From Roseovarius sp. (GTDB lineage Bacteria; Pseudomonadota; Alphaproteobacteria; Rhodobacterales; Rhodobacteraceae), in contig JARGOC010000001.1 of the NCBI GenBank assembly GCA_029212365.1, positions 124,001 through 188,000 of the forward strand: a stretch of DNA of 64,000 nucleotides. Direction: 5' to 3'. The translations under genes and the position numbers were made by a program. This document shows positions 38,276-58,119 of this stretch, in pieces (within the stretch, counting starts at the first letter, position 1; each line of letters begins with the position of its first letter). The notes under the pieces were generated by a model. The model did no database searches. It was not told where the DNA came from and was given only the letters and a program-made list of their open reading frames with translations.

Positions 38276-38323
38276 TATCTCTCTGCTAATCCTTAACTCG
38301 GGTGAGTAAAAAAGGTGGTGGAG

Positions 38324-39175
38324 ATGAGTGCGCAGGCTAATGTCGCGCCTATCATCATCAAGAAGAAGAAAGCCGGAGGCGGTGATGGGCACCATGGTGG
38401 TGCCTGGAAAGTAGCCTATGCCGACTTTGTGACAGCCATGATGGCCTTCTTCCTGTTGATGTGGCTTTTGAACGCGACGACGGAACAACAACGTAAAGGT
38501 GTGGCTGACTATTTTAGCCCTACGATTCCGATCAATCGGATTTCGGGGGGCGGAGATGGTGATTTTGGTGGCGACAGCGTGTTTTCAGAAGAAACATTGC
38601 CGCAAAATGGCACCGGCGCCACCAATCAGCGCCCGACCGAAGGTAATCAGGCGCGTGGTGAAATGGGCGTGACCGATGCCGAGCAATCCGAGCAATCTGC
38701 CGCAATGGCTGATGCTAAGGAGGCGCTGGAAGATGCGCTTACTGGTCGCAGCGGTGAAAGCACCATTTCAGAAAAGACCCGTCGGCACATTCTGACCCGC
38801 GTCACTGATGAGGGGCTTGTGATCGAGTTGTTTGATCTTGAAAGCGGGCAACTGTTCCTGAAAGGCACAGATACGCCCACACCTTTGTTGGGCGAATTGG
38901 CAGACTTGTTGGCGACGGTCAGTAAACTGGTGGAAAACACTATCGCTGTCGAAGGGCATACAAGGGCTGAACCTATTGTTGTGGCCAATAACCCGGTTTG
39001 GGATTTGTCCACTGCACGGGCGAACCGTATGCGCCTTATGATGCAGCAAAGCGGAGTTACAAGCGAACGCATGCGCCGCATCACCGGACACGCTGATCGT
39101 GAGCCGGTGGTGAGAAACACAATGGCCATTCGCAACAACCGGTTGGAGGTTATCTTGCTGAGATCTGATATCTGA
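38324..39175 (+). CDS. motB: flagellar motor stator protein MotB
   Basis: MotB anchors the stator to peptidoglycan and carries the proton-binding residue. The 283-residue product (ATG at 38324, after GGTGGTGGAG) has a basic tail (IIIKKKK), one membrane helix with the essential Asp34 in AYADFVTAMMAFFLLMWLL, a plug-like segment (TEQQRKGVADYF), a linker and the OmpA-like domain (about 190-283, IAVEGHTRAEP, DLSTARANRMRLMM, RITGHADREPV). It is about 10 kb from motA, the usual layout in this order. A CtrA-like box precedes it. Confidence 0.94.
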   Translation: MSAQANVAPIIIKKKKAGGGDGHHGGAWKVAYADFVTAMMAFFLLMWLLNATTEQQRKGVADYFSPTIPINRISGGGDGDFGGDSVFSEETLPQNGTGATNQRPTEGNQARGEMGVTDAEQSEQSAAMADAKEALEDALTGRSGESTISEKTRRHILTRVTDEGLVIELFDLESGQLFLKGTDTPTPLLGELADLLATVSKLVENTIAVEGHTRAEPIVVANNPVWDLSTARANRMRLMMQQSGVTSERMRRITGHADREPVVRNTMAIRNNRLEVILLRSDI

Positions 39176-47587: not shown

Positions 47588-48088
47588 TTGGCTGATCCTG
47601 ATGAAACCGAAGATGACTCGCCCAAAAAGAAGTCAAAGCTGCCTTTGATCATTGGATTGGTGCTGGCGTTGGCCAGTGGCGGTGGCGGGTTTTATGCGGT
47701 GCAGTCGGGTCTGCTGTTTGGTGGCGATTCGCACCAGGCTGGCGAACACGCGATGGAGGATGAACACGCGGCCGAAAAGGTGGCGCATATGCCTGATGTT
47801 GTCTTTGTGCCTGTGGATCCTTTGGTGATTTCACTCAGTGAACGAGGCAGCCATTTACGGTTTCGCGCGCAGCTGGAGGTGGGCAGCGCCTATACCGATG
47901 AGGTTACTCAGTTGATGCCGCGTGTGGTTGATGTGTTGAACAACTATTTACGCGCGCTTGAGGTGGAAGACATCGCTGATGGAGCCTCGTTAACGCGATT
48001 GCGAGCGCAGATGTTGCGCCGCATTCAAATTGTGACTGGCGGTGGGCGGGTCAACGACCTGTTGATCATGGAATTCGTACTGAACTGA
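47588..48088 (+). CDS. fliL: flagellar basal body protein FliL, TTG start
   Basis: FliL is a single-pass inner-membrane protein that surrounds and supports the stators. The 166-residue product starts at a TTG (47588), eight bases after GGAGG, and has a charged cytoplasmic tail, one helix (about residues 20-41, LPLIIGLVLALASGGGGFYAV), and the periplasmic FliL domain with VVFVPVDPLVISLSERGSHLRFRAQLEV and NDLLIMEFVLN. It is the first gene of fliL-DUF6468-motE-motA, divergent from fliF. A second FliL-like gene lies at 57625. Confidence 0.92.
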   Translation: MADPDETEDDSPKKKSKLPLIIGLVLALASGGGGFYAVQSGLLFGGDSHQAGEHAMEDEHAAEKVAHMPDVVFVPVDPLVISLSERGSHLRFRAQLEVGSAYTDEVTQLMPRVVDVLNNYLRALEVEDIADGASLTRLRAQMLRRIQIVTGGGRVNDLLIMEFVLN

Positions 48089-48098
48089 TGAGGGTGTT

Positions 48099-48548
48099 AT
48101 GGAAATGATTGCAGATATTTTGCTGGTTGCTGGCGCATTGGGGGCCGGATTCTATTGCTATATTCTGGCGCGACGGCTTGCACGGTTCAATGATCTGGAA
48201 AATGGCGTGGGCGGGGCAGTTGCTGTGTTGTCAGCGCAGGTGGATGACCTGACCAAAACGCTGCAAGCCGCTCAGCATACCGCCAGCACGTCTACTCAGT
48301 CGCTCGATGGTTTGACTGATCGTGCAGAAGGTGTGGCCAAACGTTTGGAGTTGCTTGTGGTTTCCATGAATGACTTACCTGAACCGGCCTCTGCGGCGGC
48401 CCCGGCCACCGCGCCTGCGCCAGTGAACACAGTTGCTGCAACAGAAATTGTTCCCCCGCCTGAGGTACCTGAACAAGAAGCTCAAATAGCGCCCACTGCC
48501 GGACCAATTTTCCGGCGTCACTCAGAACCTCAGGCAGGAGCGGCGTAA
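48099..48548 (+). CDS. DUF6468 flagellar operon protein
   Basis: The 149-residue protein has an N-terminal membrane helix (residues 4-25, IADILLVAGALGAGFYCYILARRLARF), a helical, probably coiled-coil segment (VAVLSAQVDDLTKTLQAAQHTASTS) and a Pro/Ala-rich tail. It belongs to a small family that occurs only next to motility genes in alphaproteobacteria, commonly before a MotE-like gene. Its role is unknown. The stop overlaps the motE start by one base. Confidence 0.78.
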   Translation: MEMIADILLVAGALGAGFYCYILARRLARFNDLENGVGGAVAVLSAQVDDLTKTLQAAQHTASTSTQSLDGLTDRAEGVAKRLELLVVSMNDLPEPASAAAPATAPAPVNTVAATEIVPPPEVPEQEAQIAPTAGPIFRRHSEPQAGAA

Positions 48549-49156
48549 TGAAAAAGCCCAAAACATCCCTGCGCCGCAAACGCCGCTTCTCAAATCGGGG
48601 GGGGCTGGTCATGATTGCCACCCTGTTATTGGGATCGGCAGTGCTTCGTATGGGCGATAATGCTGGTCAGGCGTTTGCCCTTGCCAACGATGAGATGGAA
48701 ATCACGCCACTTGAACCAGCGCCGGTGTTGGCGCAGTGCGAGACATCTGAAGACCTCCAACCCGTTTTGATGGCCTTCCAGAACCGCGAAGCGCGCCTGT
48801 CTGAGCAAGAAAATGCCCTGCGCGACAGGATGCACGCCTTGAAAATCGTTGATGAACAGGTGTCCCAAAAGCTGGCCGCCCTGACAGCGGCAGAAACAGC
48901 TTTGCGCGATACGATCGCTTTGGCTGAAACTGCGGCAGAAGGAGACCTGGCACGCCTCACCAAAGTCTATGAAACGATGAAGCCCAAACAGGCCGCTGCT
49001 CTGTTTGAAGAAATGACGCCAGAATTCGCCGCAGGTTTCCTCGGACGAATGCGCCCGGATGCAGCCGCTGCGATTCTGGCGGGAATTTCGCCGGAGGCGG
49101 CACATACCTTCAGCGTCGTTTTGGCCGGAAGAAATGCCGAAGTTCCCAAAGAATAA
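48548..49156 (+). CDS. motE: MotE-like stator chaperone
   Basis: The 202-residue protein has an N-terminal membrane helix (about residues 19-36) and then a periplasmic part: a coiled coil (about 80-140, RLSEQENALRDRMHALKIVDEQVSQKL) and a C-terminal MgtE-N-like domain (MKPKQAAALFEEMTPEFAAGFLGRMRPDAAAAILAGI). In Sinorhizobium MotE is the chaperone of the periplasmic motility protein MotC, and the position just before motA supports that role. A true MgtE transporter is excluded because the channel part is missing. Confidence 0.85.
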   Translation: MKKPKTSLRRKRRFSNRGGLVMIATLLLGSAVLRMGDNAGQAFALANDEMEITPLEPAPVLAQCETSEDLQPVLMAFQNREARLSEQENALRDRMHALKIVDEQVSQKLAALTAAETALRDTIALAETAAEGDLARLTKVYETMKPKQAAALFEEMTPEFAAGFLGRMRPDAAAAILAGISPEAAHTFSVVLAGRNAEVPKE

Positions 49157-49227: not shown

Positions 49228-50097
49228 ATGATAGGGCTAGTCGGAATTCTGGTAATTTTCGTAATGGTGTTCGGCGGCTACATTGCCGCTGGCGGAAAGC
49301 TCGGGATCATTATGAAAGCGCTTCCGTTTGAACTTATGATGATTGGGGGCGCCGCTGTCGGTGCCTTTCTGATTTCTAACGATATTCCTGCAGTCAAACA
49401 CACTATCAAGGATATTGGAAAGGTCTTTAAAGGTGCCAAATGGAAGCACGAAGATTACCGCGACCTGCTGTGCCTGCTATTTGAGCTGATTCGCCTTGCC
49501 CGCTCGAACCCGGTTGGTATTGAAGAGCATATTGAAGAGCCAGACAGCTCTTCCATTTTCTCAAAATACCCCAAAATTCAGGCGGATGGTGAAGCGGTGG
49601 CACTTATTAGTGACACTCTTCGCTCAGCCTCGATGAACTATGATGATCCACACCAGGTTGAAGAGGTGTTGGAAAAGCGCATGGATGCCAATATGCATCA
49701 TGCCTTGCATTCCAGCCACGCCTTGCAATCCATGGCCGATGGTTTGCCTGCCTTGGGTATTGTGGCCGCTGTTCTTGGGGTGATCAAAACAATGGCCGCC
49801 ATTGACCAACCGCCAGAAATTCTTGGCAAAATGATCGGCGGTGCTCTTGTTGGGACATTCTTGGGTGTATTTCTGTCATATGGGCTGGTTGGTCCGTTTG
49901 CGGGCAAGGTCAAAGCGGTGGTCGAAGAAGATGGTCACTTCTATCAGCTTATCCGCGAAGTGCTTGTGGCAAATCTTTACAACCACTCCACCAACATCTG
50001 TATTGAAGTCGGCCGTCAAAACACGCCCTCCCATTGCCGCCCCAGCTTCAACGACCTGGAAGAGGCATTGAAATCTGTCAAACAGGAAGCGGCCTGA
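49228..50097 (+). CDS. motA: flagellar motor stator protein MotA
   Basis: MotA forms the proton-conducting stator with MotB. The 289-residue protein has four membrane helices, starting with GLVGILVIFVMVFGGYIAAGG, a cytoplasmic loop with the rotor-contact charges (ELIRLARSNPVGIEEHIEEPD), and the conserved Pro near IDQPPEILGKMIGGALVGTFLGVFLSYGLVGPFA. The ATG follows CGGAGAA. Its stop shares one base with the start of the next gene. MotB is about 10 kb away on the same strand. Confidence 0.95.
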   Translation: MIGLVGILVIFVMVFGGYIAAGGKLGIIMKALPFELMMIGGAAVGAFLISNDIPAVKHTIKDIGKVFKGAKWKHEDYRDLLCLLFELIRLARSNPVGIEEHIEEPDSSSIFSKYPKIQADGEAVALISDTLRSASMNYDDPHQVEEVLEKRMDANMHHALHSSHALQSMADGLPALGIVAAVLGVIKTMAAIDQPPEILGKMIGGALVGTFLGVFLSYGLVGPFAGKVKAVVEEDGHFYQLIREVLVANLYNHSTNICIEVGRQNTPSHCRPSFNDLEEALKSVKQEAA

Positions 50098-52364
50098 TGC
50101 GCCTGGCGATTCTCATTTCTTGTATTTTTTGTTTTGCGGTAGCTGCGCAGGCGCAAACTGTTCAGGTCCGCTCGGGTGAGCATGATACATTTTCACGCCT
50201 TACCGTAACATTGCCCAACCGAATGGAGTGGGTGGTCGAACCAACCAGAAATGGCGCGCGGCTTGTTTTCAACGCGTCTCGTCTGAAGCTGGACCTCAGC
50301 GAGATCTATTCCCGAATCCCTCGGAACAGAATTTCCGACGTAAAATGGAATGGCGCAGAAAATGCACTACAACTCCATTTTGATTGTGCTTGTGAAGCGA
50401 CGGCGTTTTGGCATGGTAAATCAATGCTGGTTCTGGATGTTCGTGAGACCCCGGAAAATACTGAAGCAAAACCCACGCAAACCCGCTCGCAAGAGTATCG
50501 AGACCTTTCTAACCCACCTTTTAAGGGTCAAAAACAATCGAGCGTGATTGACCTACCATTAACGGGCTCGCCTGACGGAAATCTGCAAGACACAGAAACG
50601 ACCGATATACCGGTAACAACATTGCAACCCGAAGTTCGTGATCGGCTATTACAGCAGGTTGGTCGCGCTGCGTCTCAGGGATTGTTGTCACCCAGTATTA
50701 AACGGCCAGAACAACGTGATGCTGCCAGCAGCAGAGATTCAGCGATCAAGCCAGAGGCACTTGCTCCAGATCATGTAAAAAACACACAAGCCTCTGATCA
50801 CGTTAATCTCAAAGCCCAAAGCAGTATCGACCGGGATTTTCTGGGGTCACATCTAGCACAACAGCAAAACCTGGAGGCATCAGGATGTCTAGCGGACCGT
50901 CGAATTGATGTTGGATCTTGGGGGAATAACGATCCATTTGGTGATCAAATTTCAAAATTGCGCCTGCAACTGACGGGTGAATTTGACGCAGTAAATCCAA
51001 AGATTGCTGAGCAGTTGGTCCGGGCATATCTCTATTTTGGTTTCGGAGCTGAGGCTCGCAGTTTAATGAAATCGATGCCGCCGGAACATACAGATACGGC
51101 GATTCTGATTCGACTGACGCGCATTGCTGAAGACGGCCATGCAGGCGTAACGCCTTTCGCAAAAAATCAGTTGAGTTGCGCCTCGCCTGCTGCATTGTGG
51201 GCGGCTTTGTCGTTTGAAACACTTCCCACTGGCGTTCCAATGGATACGGATGCGATCTTGCGCGCCTTTAATGGTTTACCCGATCATCTGCGTGCCCACT
51301 ATGGTCCGATCCTGGCTCAACGGTTTATATATGCCAACCGCCCAAAAATTGCAGCAAAGCTCTTGCGGATTCTGGATCGCAATGAAGACACGCAAAGCCC
51401 GCAATCTGACATGGCTTCAGCGGATTTACTGACCACCAATGGAGATGAAGAAAAGGCCGATCAAACCCTGCAGGATGTGGCTGCGAGCAATGCAGAACCC
51501 TCGACCGAGGCACTAGTCCAGATGATCGATCAACGGTTTGATAACAAGCGGGAAATATCATTTGAATTGGCACAATTGGCTGGCGCCTATGCCTTTGAAC
51601 ATCAGGATGATGAGGCTGGTTCGGCCCTTGCGCGGGCCTATGTCCGGGCGCTTGTGGCTTCAGGTGCAATCGACCAAGCTTTTTCTGAGTTTGAGCGCAT
51701 TCAACCGCAGCTGCAACCGGAGGAAACTGTCGCGCTTCAATCGGATTTGTTGCACAGGTTGGCGCTTCAACCAGAGGACATTTCTTTTCTACGCCATACT
51801 CTGCCGATTACGTCTGAGCAGGCAGAGCAACTGCGACCAGATGTTGCAAATGCAATGGCTGATCGATTATTAACTTTAGGCTTTGCGGATCAAGCGGCAA
51901 CATTCGTTATGAGAGATTTGACGCAAGATCATAGCAGTGGGAAAGATCGCCAATTGCTACGTGCGCAATTGGCCCTTCACAAACAAAAGCCGCGCCAGGC
52001 GATTGTTGAAATGTTGGGTATGATCGGTTCTGATGCCAATCTTCTGCGAGCCCAAGCGCGCAGTATGGTGGGCGAGCATAGCGCAGCTTATCACCTCTAT
52101 GTCGCTGCGGGTCAGACACAAAAGGCGCAACGGCAGGCTTGGCTGGGCGACAAATGGGCTGAGGCCGCAGCGCCAGGCGATCCGGTTTTTGAAAGTCTGG
52201 CAACGCTATTGGACAGCACTCCCACAGAGGAACTCACAACTTCTGTCGGCAGCATCGCGGTGTTAGCTCAAAATCGAAACTTGGTTGAAGGCAGCTTGGC
52301 GATGCGCAGCGCGTTCGACGCTCTACTCAATGCCAACCCGGTGCCCAGCCCTTCAACTGAGTGA
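50097..52364 (+). CDS. secreted AMIN-like plus helical-repeat protein of the motA operon
   Basis: The 755-residue product begins with a signal peptide (about residues 1-20, ILISCIFCFAVAAQAQ). Residues about 21-120 look like an AMIN-type beta domain (VQVRSGEHDTFSRLTVTLP, LVFNASRLKLDLSEIYSRI, SMLVLDVRE), which in other proteins binds peptidoglycan. A polar linker follows to about 290. Residues about 290-740 form an array of helical hairpins like TPRs (FGAEARSLMKSMP, AIDQAFSEFERIQPQL, RQAIVEMLGMIGSD). It sits between motA and a lytic transglycosylase gene, coupled to motA, so it may be a MotC-like periplasmic stator factor. No known family name can be given with certainty. Confidence 0.75.
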   Translation: MRLAILISCIFCFAVAAQAQTVQVRSGEHDTFSRLTVTLPNRMEWVVEPTRNGARLVFNASRLKLDLSEIYSRIPRNRISDVKWNGAENALQLHFDCACEATAFWHGKSMLVLDVRETPENTEAKPTQTRSQEYRDLSNPPFKGQKQSSVIDLPLTGSPDGNLQDTETTDIPVTTLQPEVRDRLLQQVGRAASQGLLSPSIKRPEQRDAASSRDSAIKPEALAPDHVKNTQASDHVNLKAQSSIDRDFLGSHLAQQQNLEASGCLADRRIDVGSWGNNDPFGDQISKLRLQLTGEFDAVNPKIAEQLVRAYLYFGFGAEARSLMKSMPPEHTDTAILIRLTRIAEDGHAGVTPFAKNQLSCASPAALWAALSFETLPTGVPMDTDAILRAFNGLPDHLRAHYGPILAQRFIYANRPKIAAKLLRILDRNEDTQSPQSDMASADLLTTNGDEEKADQTLQDVAASNAEPSTEALVQMIDQRFDNKREISFELAQLAGAYAFEHQDDEAGSALARAYVRALVASGAIDQAFSEFERIQPQLQPEETVALQSDLLHRLALQPEDISFLRHTLPITSEQAEQLRPDVANAMADRLLTLGFADQAATFVMRDLTQDHSSGKDRQLLRAQLALHKQKPRQAIVEMLGMIGSDANLLRAQARSMVGEHSAAYHLYVAAGQTQKAQRQAWLGDKWAEAAAPGDPVFESLATLLDSTPTEELTTSVGSIAVLAQNRNLVEGSLAMRSAFDALLNANPVPSPSTE

Positions 52365-52457: not shown

Positions 52458-53225
52458 GTGATCAAAACGGTGAAACTATCATGCATATTCCTGGGTTCCG
52501 GGTTCCTTAACGGCTGGATTCTGAGTTCAATACTCTTCGTTGCGCTGTGGCCGACTGCTGGGTTGGCGTCGGCTAATATGGCGCTCCTGTGCGACAAGGT
52601 TTCCAAGGTGGCCGCGGCAGAAAGCGGTGTGCCTTTGGCGGTTCTACGCTCCATTACACGAACAGAAACGGGCCGCACGCGTGATGGTACGTTACAGCCA
52701 TGGCCTTGGACGGTGAATATGGAAGGTGTCGGCAAGTGGTTCGACTCAGAAGATGCCGCTCGGGCGTATGTTTTTAGACACTTCAAGCGTGGCGCACGCA
52801 GTTTTGATGTGGGCTGTTTTCAGATCAACTATAAATGGCATCATGAGGCATTCCGTTCGATTGATGAAATGTTTGATCCTTTGACAAATGCCAGATACGC
52901 CGCTGATTTCCTGAACAGACTGCATCAGGAAACCGGCGATTGGTCCAAGGCTGCAGGCGCATACCATTCTCGTACGCCTGAATATGCCACCAAATATCGC
53001 AGCCGGTTTGACCGTATCCGCCGAGATATGCAGGTACAGCCGCCTGTCAGTATGGCCAATGCAGCATCCAGTCCGATTGCGGCTTCGCAAAACCGGTTGC
53101 GTTTAAACACCTACCCATTGCTGCAATCAGGTTCCAATGGCGGCGCCCGCGGGTCTCTGGTGCCCTTGGAGCAAGGCACAGGGCAGGCTTTGATTGGATT
53201 GGCGCAACCACTGTTGGGATCCTGA
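52458..53225 (+). CDS. lytic transglycosylase, SltF-like
   Basis: The 255-residue protein starts at a GTG and has an N-terminal signal sequence (ILSSILFVALWPTAGLASA). The Slt catalytic domain follows (about residues 55-185), with the catalytic Glu in LRSITRTETGRTRDG, FDVGCFQINYKWH and AAGAYHSRTPEYATKYRSRF. In Rhodobacter sphaeroides SltF opens the peptidoglycan for the flagellar rod; location two bases before flhA supports the same role. A proline- and Asn-rich tail lacks recognisable domains. Confidence 0.87.
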   Translation: MIKTVKLSCIFLGSGFLNGWILSSILFVALWPTAGLASANMALLCDKVSKVAAAESGVPLAVLRSITRTETGRTRDGTLQPWPWTVNMEGVGKWFDSEDAARAYVFRHFKRGARSFDVGCFQINYKWHHEAFRSIDEMFDPLTNARYAADFLNRLHQETGDWSKAAGAYHSRTPEYATKYRSRFDRIRRDMQVQPPVSMANAASSPIAASQNRLRLNTYPLLQSGSNGGARGSLVPLEQGTGQALIGLAQPLLGS

Positions 53226-56088: not shown

Positions 56089-57174
56089 ATGGCTGACAAG
56101 GAGGATGACGCCGAAAAATCACATGAACCAACGCCACAAAAGTTGCTGGAGAAACGCAAGAAAGGTGACATTGCACGATCAGCCGATTTGACCACCGCCG
56201 CGACATACGGGGGTTTCCTTTTGGTGGGGCTGTCTATTGGAGCCGACACGATTGAGCAAATGGGCTCTTCCATGGCGGCGCTCGTGGGTCAATCAGCTGC
56301 GATTGCCGATTTGGTATTTGAAGGTAGCGGTGCATCGGGACTCAGCGGATTGATGGCCAGTATTGGTTTGGCCTTGCTGGGCTGGTATCTGATACCGGCA
56401 GGTATGGGCCTGCTATCGGTTCTGGCACAACGCAGTTTCATCGTCGCAACTGACAAGGTGAAGCCAAAACTCTCCCGGCTTGATCCGATCGCCAATGCGA
56501 AGAAGAAATTCGGTATTTCCGGCCTGTTCGAGTTTACAAAAAGTTTTTGCAAACTGTTGTTTTACTCCATTCTGTTGGGGTTCTTCCTGACTTACAGAAT
56601 TGATGAAATGGCCGGGGCCATTCACGCGGAACCACACATGATAGGCGCATTGATGCTTCGGATGGTGGTCGAATTCATGTTTGTGGTGTTGCTCATAGCG
56701 CTTCTAGTAGGCGCCGCCGACTTTTTGTGGCAACGCCATGATTTTCTGCGCCAGAATCGCATGTCCTACCGAGAGCTTCAGGAGGAACACAAACGCCATG
56801 AGGGCGATCCGCATATGAAGCAAAAACGCCGACAGAAGGGGGCTGAAATAGCGGGGGCTCAGATGATGGCTGATGTGCCTGACGCCGATGTGGTGATCGT
56901 AAACCCAACCCACTATGCTGTTGCCTTGAAATGGAGCCGCGCGCCCGGATCTGCACCCACCTGCGTGGCCAAGGGTGTGGATCACATCGCTCTGTCAATT
57001 CGTGAGCTGGCCGAGGAAAACGGCGTTCCTATCCGACACGATCCACCCACCGCGCGAGCCCTGTACGCCACGACGCAAATCGGAGACGAGATTGATTCTG
57101 ATCACTACCGGGTTGTGGCTGCTGCTATCCGCTTTGCTGAAACTCTACGTCGTCGCGCGAAGAAATTCGGATGA
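56089..57174 (+). CDS. flhB: flagellar export switch protein FlhB
   Basis: FlhB controls export specificity by self-cleavage. The 361-residue protein has a charged N-terminus (EKSHEPTPQKLLEKRKKGDIARSADL), four membrane helices and the cytoplasmic domain with the cleavage motif NPTH (about residue 270, VVIVNPTHYAVALKW) and GVDHIALSIRELAEENGVPI. It overlaps the following coiled-coil gene by four bases. Confidence 0.96.
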   Translation: MADKEDDAEKSHEPTPQKLLEKRKKGDIARSADLTTAATYGGFLLVGLSIGADTIEQMGSSMAALVGQSAAIADLVFEGSGASGLSGLMASIGLALLGWYLIPAGMGLLSVLAQRSFIVATDKVKPKLSRLDPIANAKKKFGISGLFEFTKSFCKLLFYSILLGFFLTYRIDEMAGAIHAEPHMIGALMLRMVVEFMFVVLLIALLVGAADFLWQRHDFLRQNRMSYRELQEEHKRHEGDPHMKQKRRQKGAEIAGAQMMADVPDADVVIVNPTHYAVALKWSRAPGSAPTCVAKGVDHIALSIRELAEENGVPIRHDPPTARALYATTQIGDEIDSDHYRVVAAAIRFAETLRRRAKKFG

Positions 57175-57611
57175 CCCGCACAGCAAGTACCGAATTGGCT
57201 GAGCTGACCAACATATTGTTTCAGGCTGAACAATCCAAAATGCGTCAAGTGGTCGAGCAGGAAGCTGCTTTGCGCCGCGATCTGGCCCAGTTAGATGCGA
57301 GCCGCGAGGCAAATCTGGCACTTCCGACCGCAAAACTGCGTGCCGTGCGGCAGATCGGGGCAGATGTGCAATGGCAAGCCTGGCTGGGGCGCACGCGTGC
57401 TGATCTCAACCGTCGGTTAGCCCTGTGTCTTGTGCAAAAAGAACGAATGATGAAAGCGCTGCAACAAGCACATGGCCGAAAGTTGGCCGCCGACCAGATC
57501 AATACCGCTGCGCAAAAGGCCGGCGCATGTCACCTCGACAAGATTGCGAGGGAAAGCGAAGAGTCGTTGTCTGTTCTAAAGAGAATTCAGGCGGCACAGG
57601 CCCAGAATTAG
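57171..57611 (+). CDS. hypothetical coiled-coil protein, FliJ-like
   Basis: The 146-residue product is almost entirely helical and charged (KMRQVVEQEAALRRDLAQLDASREANL; VQKERMMKALQQAHGRKLAAD; ESEESLSVLKRIQAAQ), with no membrane segment or signal. The size and coiled-coil nature resemble FliJ, the export-ATPase stalk protein that is poorly conserved and often unannotated, and no other fliJ is seen in the window. It is coupled to flhB by an ATGA overlap and converges on the fliL-like gene. The FliJ idea is an inference. Confidence 0.6.
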   Translation: MTRTASTELAELTNILFQAEQSKMRQVVEQEAALRRDLAQLDASREANLALPTAKLRAVRQIGADVQWQAWLGRTRADLNRRLALCLVQKERMMKALQQAHGRKLAADQINTAAQKAGACHLDKIARESEESLSVLKRIQAAQAQN

Positions 57612-57624
57612 ACGGGTTCCAGAA

Positions 57625-58119
57625 TCATACATCCTGTCGGGCGATATCAGTTATGACAACCCCGGTGACAATTTTCCCAACCACATTTTGCGCCGCTTCG
57701 GTCAGTGAAGCTCGCAACACATCCAAATTGTTTCCATCGGTAAACCGGCCTTGAAATCCACCTATGTTGGCGTGATCAAACATCACCTGCAGCAACGCGT
57801 CACGCAGTTTGGGTTCGCGCGTGTAAATGATTTCAGTTTGGCCTGCATCCACTTCTATGCCCACAGACATCACAACCAGAGATTCGACTAAATCAACTGA
57901 AACAACGGGTATAACGAACTGGTTATTCAACTCGACATACTCTGGCATTTCTGCTTCGGCGGGTCCTTCTTCGACCATATGAGTGTCAGGCTCAGACATG
58001 TCCCCACAGGGATTGTGGTTTGCCATATCTGTTGGTGAAGACTTGAGTATGATCCCGGCACCAATACCGGCGCCCGCACCAATTAGGATGAGTAGAATGG
58101 GAAATAGTTTTCTTATCAT
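57625..58119 (-). CDS. FliL-like flagellar protein, second copy
   Basis: The 164-residue protein has one N-terminal membrane helix (residues 5-25, LFPILLILIGAGAGIGAGIIL), a short acidic linker and a FliL-type periplasmic domain (YVELNNQFVIPVVSVDLVESLVVMSVGIEVD, LRDALLQVMFDHANIGGF, VVGKIVTGVVITDI). It is a paralogue of the FliL at 47588 with low similarity, so it may have a different partner. It is the last gene of the leftward flgB-to-flgH run, nine bases after flgH. Confidence 0.78.
   Translation of the reverse strand: MIRKLFPILLILIGAGAGIGAGIILKSSPTDMANHNPCGDMSEPDTHMVEEGPAEAEMPEYVELNNQFVIPVVSVDLVESLVVMSVGIEVDAGQTEIIYTREPKLRDALLQVMFDHANIGGFQGRFTDGNNLDVLRASLTEAAQNVVGKIVTGVVITDIARQDV

Follow-up and report, generated by a model that had tools for sequence, protein, structure and literature searches.

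A motA-coupled MotK orthologue in a Roseovarius flagellar gene cluster, probably a PflA-like spoke of the stators

What is the function of the large secreted protein whose gene begins inside the stop codon of motA in the flagellar gene cluster of a Roseovarius species? The gene lies in a stretch of 64,000 nucleotides (hereafter the window; Roseovarius sp. assembly GCA_029212365.1, contig JARGOC010000001.1, positions 124,001 to 188,000) that contains a flagellar gene cluster of the Rhodobacterales type. A preliminary description made from the sequence alone had pointed to a 755-residue open reading frame sharing one base with the motA stop, and had proposed a new stator component. The reading frame is confirmed at 50097–52364 on the forward strand, with the motA stop TGA at 50095–50097 and the start ATG at 50097–50099 having one base in common (Table 1). 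We propose, with a probability of roughly 0.8, that the gene encodes the MotK of the archetypal ('fla1-type') roseobacter flagellum, a motA-coupled, periplasmic and PflA-like spoke that places or activates the MotA/MotB stators. The protein is an ordinary, well-defined member of a known family, to which its study adds testable features and an evolutionary correction.

The gene order in the window is fliL-pflI-motE-motA-motK, then sltF and flhA, and the order fliL-pflI-motE-motA-motK is in print for Cereibacter sphaeroides (PMC10954123, PLoS One 2024; this and the other papers cited here were available to us in part). In that bacterium, MotK is described as a periplasmic protein with an AMIN-like N terminus and TPR-like helices that is required for rotation but dispensable for filaments, interacts with MotE and MotB2, and forms a polar focus that depends on MotA2/MotB2 (PMC10954123). 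One locus in our collection (L086, genome G051) encodes a MotK of 652 residues and 68.56 kDa and a MotE of 185 residues and 19.17 kDa, the only cysteine of the latter being residue 49, which is residue 20 of the mature protein; because these sizes and the MotE cysteine equal the printed values, we took the locus to be that of C. sphaeroides or of a species indistinguishable from it. The window protein aligns with this MotK over 602 columns at 27% identity (E 1e-46). Shared with C. sphaeroides MotK are the gene order, signal peptide, AMIN-like N terminus, disordered linker, TPR-like helices and four conserved cysteines (C98, C100, C243 and C339 in L086). The two differ in length, 652 versus 755 residues, most of the additional residues lying in the linker and C-terminal to the final conserved cysteine. 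On this sequence evidence the window protein is taken as an orthologue of C. sphaeroides MotK; a search of its own genome with the gene found a single place, the gene itself.

The same arrangement is on record under other names in Phaeobacter inhibens, in which the order is fliF, CP2, CP3, motA, CP4, sltF, flhA (PMC12363192, mSystems 2025). CP4 (PGA1_c35690) occupies the same place between motA and sltF, and by gene order, on which the equation of CP4 with the window MotK rests, CP4 is the positional counterpart of motK, CP3 of motE and CP2 of pflI. Transposon mutants in CP4 are immotile (PMC12363192). In the main text of that paper, as available, the words 'MotK' and 'MotE' are absent, and we found no statement equating CP4 with MotK in the literature searched. 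What is called 'Fla2' in C. sphaeroides seems to correspond to the 'fla1-type' cluster described for P. inhibens, the names fla1 and fla2 being swapped. This clash may have hidden that CP2, CP3 and CP4 are PflI, MotE and MotK, and the publications on MotK and on CP2–4 appear to describe one operon under different names. The window protein is accordingly not new, MotK having been named in 2024 and CP4 reported in 2025: from the earlier proposal of a new stator component, the stator role survives through the orthology with MotK and the novelty does not. Taken together, the Cereibacter work on MotK and the Phaeobacter work on CP2–4 offer tractable genetics for studying the E-ring, which MotE is argued to form (see below), and the stator scaffold.

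Coupling to motA proved to be a property of the family. A motK homologue is present in 131 of 198 genomes of the Rhodobacteraceae (own genome included), and MotA exceeds its cut-off in 141 of the 198, of which 130 also have motK. The single genome with motK and no motA (G040) has a contig that ends where motA is expected. Genome G194, without motK in the first count, has behind its motA a motK that has diverged (profile E 6e-45), and a contig edge lies just behind motA in G113. Eight genomes with MotA only have a motA that is 48–53% identical to that of the window, and no motE, pflI or motK was found in the 9 kb read around it; in the family, motK accompanies a single type of flagellar cluster. 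Loci were read from 120 of the 131 matching genomes (11 were not included) and from one near relative (L002), 121 in all, of which 117 hold both genes, L115 being without a motK by tblastn and L093, L094 and L108 without the motA end. In all 117, a count that includes the window and one near relative, motA lies directly upstream of motK. The junction is an overlap of 4 bases in 88 loci, an overlap of 1 base in 27 and a 3-base gap in 2; the start codon was picked near the motA stop, which biases the exact offsets in that direction and leaves the adjacency unaffected. The gap between motE and motA is 40–99 bases in 54 of 64 measurable loci. These junctions point to translational coupling of motA and motK. 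A chance overlap of motA and a 755-residue reading frame is ruled out by a homologue in 131 of 198 genomes and by adjacency in 117 of 117 loci; a non-flagellar secreted protein was also considered and rejected. The closest named relative found is in a metagenome assembly, Roseovarius sp. UBA3070 (85% identical), the sole match in a contig scan, and a plasmid collection gave one weak partial match, from Paroceanicella profunda.

The position of the gene had first been read as that of the MotC-type factors of Sinorhizobium. MotC follows motB in Sinorhizobium; here, the gene follows motA and motB is about 11 kb away, and the reading of the protein as a MotC equivalent by position was rejected. 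No rhizobial-type MotB exceeded its cut-off in the 12 genomes searched. MotC of Sinorhizobium meliloti resembles MotK in having a MotE partner and in being rich in TPRs, but it has no AMIN domain (PMC13023049). Equally, the MotE-like gene said to lie just upstream is indeed upstream, at 48548–49156, and adjoins motA, not motK.

Table 1. Features of the motK orthologue and of its flagellar neighbours (window positions; residue numbers are those of the 755-residue protein).
Feature	Position	Strand	Remarks
motK orthologue	50097..52364	+	755 aa, ATG start
Signal peptide	50097..50153	+	residues 1-19, AQA before Q20; by inspection, hydrophobic core, predicted helix 2-17
AMIN-fold beta-sandwich	50157..50450	+	residues 21-118; AlphaFold2, AmiC 4bin Z 12.5; mean conservation 1.97 bits
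C97-x-C99 pair	50385..50393	+	in AMIN-fold domain
Conserved helix motif	50628..50690	+	residues 178-198, core 184-197 LLxQLxRAAxQGLL, within disordered linker
C264	50886..50888	+	start of helical array
TPR-like helical array	50889..52214	+	residues 265-706; predicted model; homologous to long family
C361	51177..51179	+	possible disulfide partner of C264
C-terminal helix	52251..52334	+	residues 719-746; 1.68 bits
motB	38315..39175	+	MotB_plug and OmpA over cut-off; about 11 kb from motK
fliL	47588..48088	+	opens five-gene run
pflI-like	48099..48548	+	DUF6468 under cut-off; named by position between fliL and motE
motE-like	48548..49156	+	MgtE_N over cut-off; weak collar FlbB match
motA	49228..50097	+	TIGR03818 359.7 bits, cut-off 303.8; one-base overlap with motK
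sltF-like lytic transglycosylase	52458..53225	+	SLT over cut-off; starts 93 bases past motK stop

Profile searches returned neither of the two domains proposed for the protein: Pfam gave no family at E ≤ 1 for the window MotK, hence the cut-off of AMIN (PF11741) was not reached, and NCBIfam returned a lone match without meaning, at 13.7 bits where the cut-off is 2400. Structure prediction recovers both domains. The AlphaFold2 model, built from an 80-row alignment, has a mean predicted local distance difference test (pLDDT) score of 84.7 and a predicted template modelling (pTM) score of 0.64, with low confidence at residues 122–176, 201–238 and 258–260. It comprises the AMIN-like N terminus of the preliminary description, a sandwich at residues 21–117 aligned by VIA over 99 residues with the AMIN domain of AmiC (4bin; model residues 19–118, root-mean-square deviation (rmsd) 2.2), and helices from residue 243, with 29 of at least 4 residues from residue 267 on, which carry the long TPR-like array and match TPR superhelices with a best VIA Z of 15.9 (rmsd 4.5 over 273). 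The predicted order is thus AMIN-fold sandwich, disordered linker, TPR-like superhelix, behind a Sec-type signal peptide that inspection also upholds.

This three-part order has a counterpart among proteins that scaffold stators. In a Foldseek search of the PDB, the top match to the model is chain K of 9hmf, the flagellar scaffold in the periplasm of C. jejuni (E 1.4e-6; next match 1.5e-4), and from its length (773) we take this chain to be, probably, PflA. PflA of this bacterium, Campylobacter jejuni, consists of an N-terminal beta-sandwich, an unstructured linker and a 16-TPR superhelix, and forms spokes that scaffold the stators (PMC12222027, PDB 9HMF). It differs from MotK in binding PflB. 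A second counterpart, by description, is CC_2058 (FssB) of Caulobacter crescentus, which has an AMIN-like N terminus and TPRs by published models, has been proposed as a distant relative of MotK (PMC10954123; preprint PMC11870540) and adjoins the motE homologue CC_2059 (PMC11870540). The same two papers propose MotC and MotK as PflA homologues by structure. Deletion of fssB gives paralysed flagella and blocks a stator-dependent mechanical signal (PMC7885107), and the loss of that signal can follow simply from a dead motor; this is the closest hint of the wall sensing that the preliminary description suggested MotK might perform. As for MotE, which the preliminary description called a chaperone, a role limited to that is now disputed, and a 2026 review argues that it forms the E-ring (PMC13023049). 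Putting these together, MotK would be exported to the periplasm; its TPR superhelix would lie on or beside the MotE ring, its N-terminal AMIN-fold domain and linker would reach outward to the peptidoglycan or to a partner protein, and the parts would jointly position the MotA/MotB stators around the rotor or activate them. The roles of the domains in binding, the binding of peptidoglycan and the position of the spoke are the conjectural parts of this mechanism. The stator role is supported because rotation in C. sphaeroides requires the orthologue, which binds both MotE and MotB2 (PMC10954123), and the orthology, motA adjacency, predicted fold, conserved cysteine pairs and conserved linker helix are findings of the present analysis.

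Several observations weigh against this proposal. Sequence identity to the MotK of L086 is only 27%. The superposition of 9hmf chain K on the window MotK model is poor overall (TM 0.20, rmsd 41), as is that on the model of a long homologue described below (TM 0.17, rmsd 32), and many unrelated TPR proteins stand close behind it in the Foldseek list; because whole superpositions are poor, as expected of flexible superhelices, we take the matches to 9hmf chain K to support the architecture and not the geometry. 9hmf is absent among the 50 rows that VIA lists for either model, and PflA is not listed at E ≤ 1 when PDB sequences are searched with a profile (A1) of 80 MotKs, namely the window protein, 78 of the 115 other family sequences and L002, chosen for score and completeness. 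Wall binding by PflA is not described in PMC12222027, as available, which weakens the peptidoglycan step. The phenotypes in P. inhibens differ from those of the flagellated motE and motK mutants of C. sphaeroides: a mutant in CP3, at the motE position, lacks visible flagella and has nothing but FlgH outside the cell, whereas the CP4 mutant exports a reduced set of flagellar proteins, still including FliC, FlgK and FlgE (PMC12363192). The CP4 phenotype is not pinned to CP4 alone, because complementation used the whole operon (PMC12363192). Finally, genome G023 (L198) has fliL, pflI, motE and motA (59%) in the usual order, then flhA, with no recognisable motK between motA and flhA, nor any found genome-wide by the A1 profile. 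MotE can therefore persist without a recognisable MotK, and G023 is a natural test of the need of MotE for MotK.

Conservation within the family singles out several features. Among 116 homologues, a set that leaves out the window itself and includes its near relative L002, C264 and C361 are invariant (116 of 116), and the cysteines at 97 and 99 occur together in 108 and are both replaced in 8, never one without the other; the 8 losses need not have arisen independently. The number of cysteines past residue 25 is 4 in 105 homologues, 2 in 8, and 5 or 6 in 3. Because of this pattern of co-occurrence, we propose two disulfides, 264–361 and 97–99, as the sequences suggest. Within the disordered linker, residues 177–199 are gap-free and carry 2.02 bits per column, on a par with the AMIN domain, between flanking linker stretches of 0.77 and 0.85; this helix is a candidate docking motif. 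Neither the cysteine pairs nor this helix was found in the published descriptions of MotK consulted, in the parts available; both are specific, cheap targets. In MotE, a cysteine like that described as forming the disulfide dimer is missing in 31 of the 84 MotE matches in L002–L121 that start early enough, and a covalent MotE dimer may for that reason not be general.

What the N-terminal part reaches is the point at which the proposal divides. Amidase AMIN domains bind peptidoglycan, as a wall anchor would. A variant compatible with the spoke is that the AMIN-fold domain and linker clasp a motor protein and leave the peptidoglycan unbound, which we consider quite possible, at somewhat under even odds. 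The linker helix, at residues 184–197, is conserved like the AMIN domain, and for PflA both the beta-sandwich and the linker are needed for PflB binding in vitro (PMC12222027). A further argument comes from a locus outside the family (L164, genome G379), where a 584-residue MotK-like protein (L164:7947-9698) overlaps motA by 4 bases and has a signal-like N terminus and no AMIN domain. It keeps part of the array, which aligns with MotK over 189 columns (hhalign E 6.6e-9), with a cysteine pair inside. Given the PflA interaction and this AMIN-less protein, the essential task of MotK may be something other than binding the wall, a further point against the mechanism as drawn with a wall anchor. 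This is a single AMIN-less case, and the search was unlikely to reveal many others: a search of 385 genomes with the L164 protein found only itself and missed the window MotK too, so that rarity of AMIN-less forms is not implied. By eye, the stretch behind the L164 signal resembles the MotK linker helix; no motE match was found in this 18-kb locus.

A role of MotK in the assembly of the flagellum or the order of secretion, as a periplasmic chaperone or checkpoint and not at the stators, is unlikely. It would account for the reduced protein set exported by CP4 mutants and the almost complete lack of export in CP3 mutants, and for CP1 and CP3 the paper itself considers chaperone or premature-assembly roles (PMC12363192). 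However, CP4 mutants still export FliC, FlgK and FlgE (PMC12363192), motK mutants of C. sphaeroides fail to swim although they produce filaments and hook protein (PMC10954123), and the flagella that deletion of the proposed distant homologue fssB leaves paralysed in Caulobacter are assembled (PMC7885107).

It is less probable still that MotK is a partner in wall remodelling, its AMIN domain bringing SltF to the site at which the rod crosses the wall. AMIN domains localise amidases, as is established for AmiC, and the transglycosylase noted in the preliminary description, an SLT-domain gene at 52458–53225, directly follows motK in the window. Across the family, the association is looser than that with motA: an sltF match occurs in at least 70 of 120 motK loci (many of the loci being short), against motA adjacency in 117 of 117, and flhA follows motK almost immediately in L105 and L118. 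Outside the family, homologues accompany motE in 19 of 20 loci.

Those homologues bear on where MotK comes from. The A1 profile matched 165 of 385 genomes of the class, four of them belonging to the family. The matches listed outside the family cover mostly the first 180 positions and fall in open reading frames of about 1000–1400 residues; this N-terminal region, which takes in the signal peptide and linker, matches separately with E down to 6.5e-21. We read 20 loci outside the family (L145–L164), a sample that is not random because it consists of the 16 best A1 matches and four others. Flagellar genes are present in every one of them, and motE is matched in 19. A MotB-like gene lies no more than two genes from the long protein in 10 of the 20 loci, and a second, shorter MotB-like gene does so in 11, as counted with profiles built from eight of the loci later counted with them. 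For three of each kind examined with Pfam, plug and OmpA domains exceed their cut-offs in all three of the first, and plug exceeds its cut-off in one and is below it in two of the second. Both genes stand in tandem, immediately or a short way upstream of the long gene, in L145–L148, L150, L151, L153, L155, L159 and L161, and this arrangement spans several alphaproteobacterial families; L152 has one of them, and L163 both, a few genes off. In L160 (G254), the motK-like match has motA and motE beside it, crosses a stop and seems to be split over two frames, as a pseudogene or a sequencing error would.

The array is shared as well. A profile (A2) of 18 of these loci, leaving out L160, with the stop in its matched frame, and the AMIN-less L164, aligns along the TPR array with the MotK profile (probability 99.9, E 5.5e-36), and the latter matches one long member at E 1.9e-13. 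That the likeness to the long proteins and to PflA is generic repeat similarity we consider very improbable: TPR arrays do match readily, and in VIA many unrelated TPR proteins reach Z 12–16 (13–18 for the long homologue), but these E-values, that of L164 and the separate N-terminal match stand against a probability of 1.1 and an E of 0.047 for the HemY of the window (TPR_19 and HemY_N over cut-off), the control on which the generic explanation was rejected, a thin one in being a single protein.

For the long homologue of L161, Pfam finds AMIN at 23.1 bits (cut-off 20.5) and TPR_6 also above its cut-off. Its AlphaFold model (18 rows, mean pLDDT 82.1, pTM 0.46) has beta domains to residue 454, the first two of which (27–121 and 131–226) are like the MotK sandwich, and a helical array from residue 484. 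The top Foldseek match is again 9hmf chain K (E 8.8e-11), followed by IFT-A (4.7e-9), and the rows that VIA lists are TPR proteins, with no AMIN-domain entry. Among genomes outside the Rhodobacteraceae, 183 of the 217 that are FlhA-positive match the long profile strongly (E about 2e-21 or lower), as do 16 of the 163 FlhA-negative ones; six of these 16 are less than 90% complete, and in one FlhA-negative genome, G391 (L158), flagellar genes adjoin the match. A motE search of ten FlhA-positive genomes without a strong match found nothing, in a search that was itself uninformative.

PMC12363192 states that CP1–4 are not found outside the Rhodobacterales. Judged by sequence, class-wide long homologues contradict this for CP4, if homology and not the name was meant, and they support the published proposals of CC_2058 as a distant relative and of MotC and MotK as PflA homologues by structure. 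We lean towards the view that MotK/CP4 is not an invention of the Rhodobacterales but a cysteine-stapled and shortened version of an AMIN and TPR scaffold that occurs throughout the class, was for the most part inherited vertically, pairs with MotE in alphaproteobacterial flagellar clusters and, in several other families, stands just behind two tandem MotB-like genes. If so, there would be one ancestral PflA-like spoke in the alphaproteobacterial E-ring, and the linker helix LLxQLxRAAxQGLL would be the conserved point of attachment for a partner in the stator or the ring. The class-wide homologues also indicate further places to look.

Two minor observations concern the remainder of the cluster. 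An open reading frame of 146 residues (57171–57611), with DUF2859 under its cut-off and no clear family, lies between flhB and a second fliL-like gene, in a position that may fit 'gene 19' (function unknown) of P. inhibens. The window appears to hold two fliL-type genes in one cluster, at 47588–48088 and at 57625–58119, the latter presumed to be fliL from its position. The P. inhibens cluster is likewise named with two fliL-type genes (PMC12363192).

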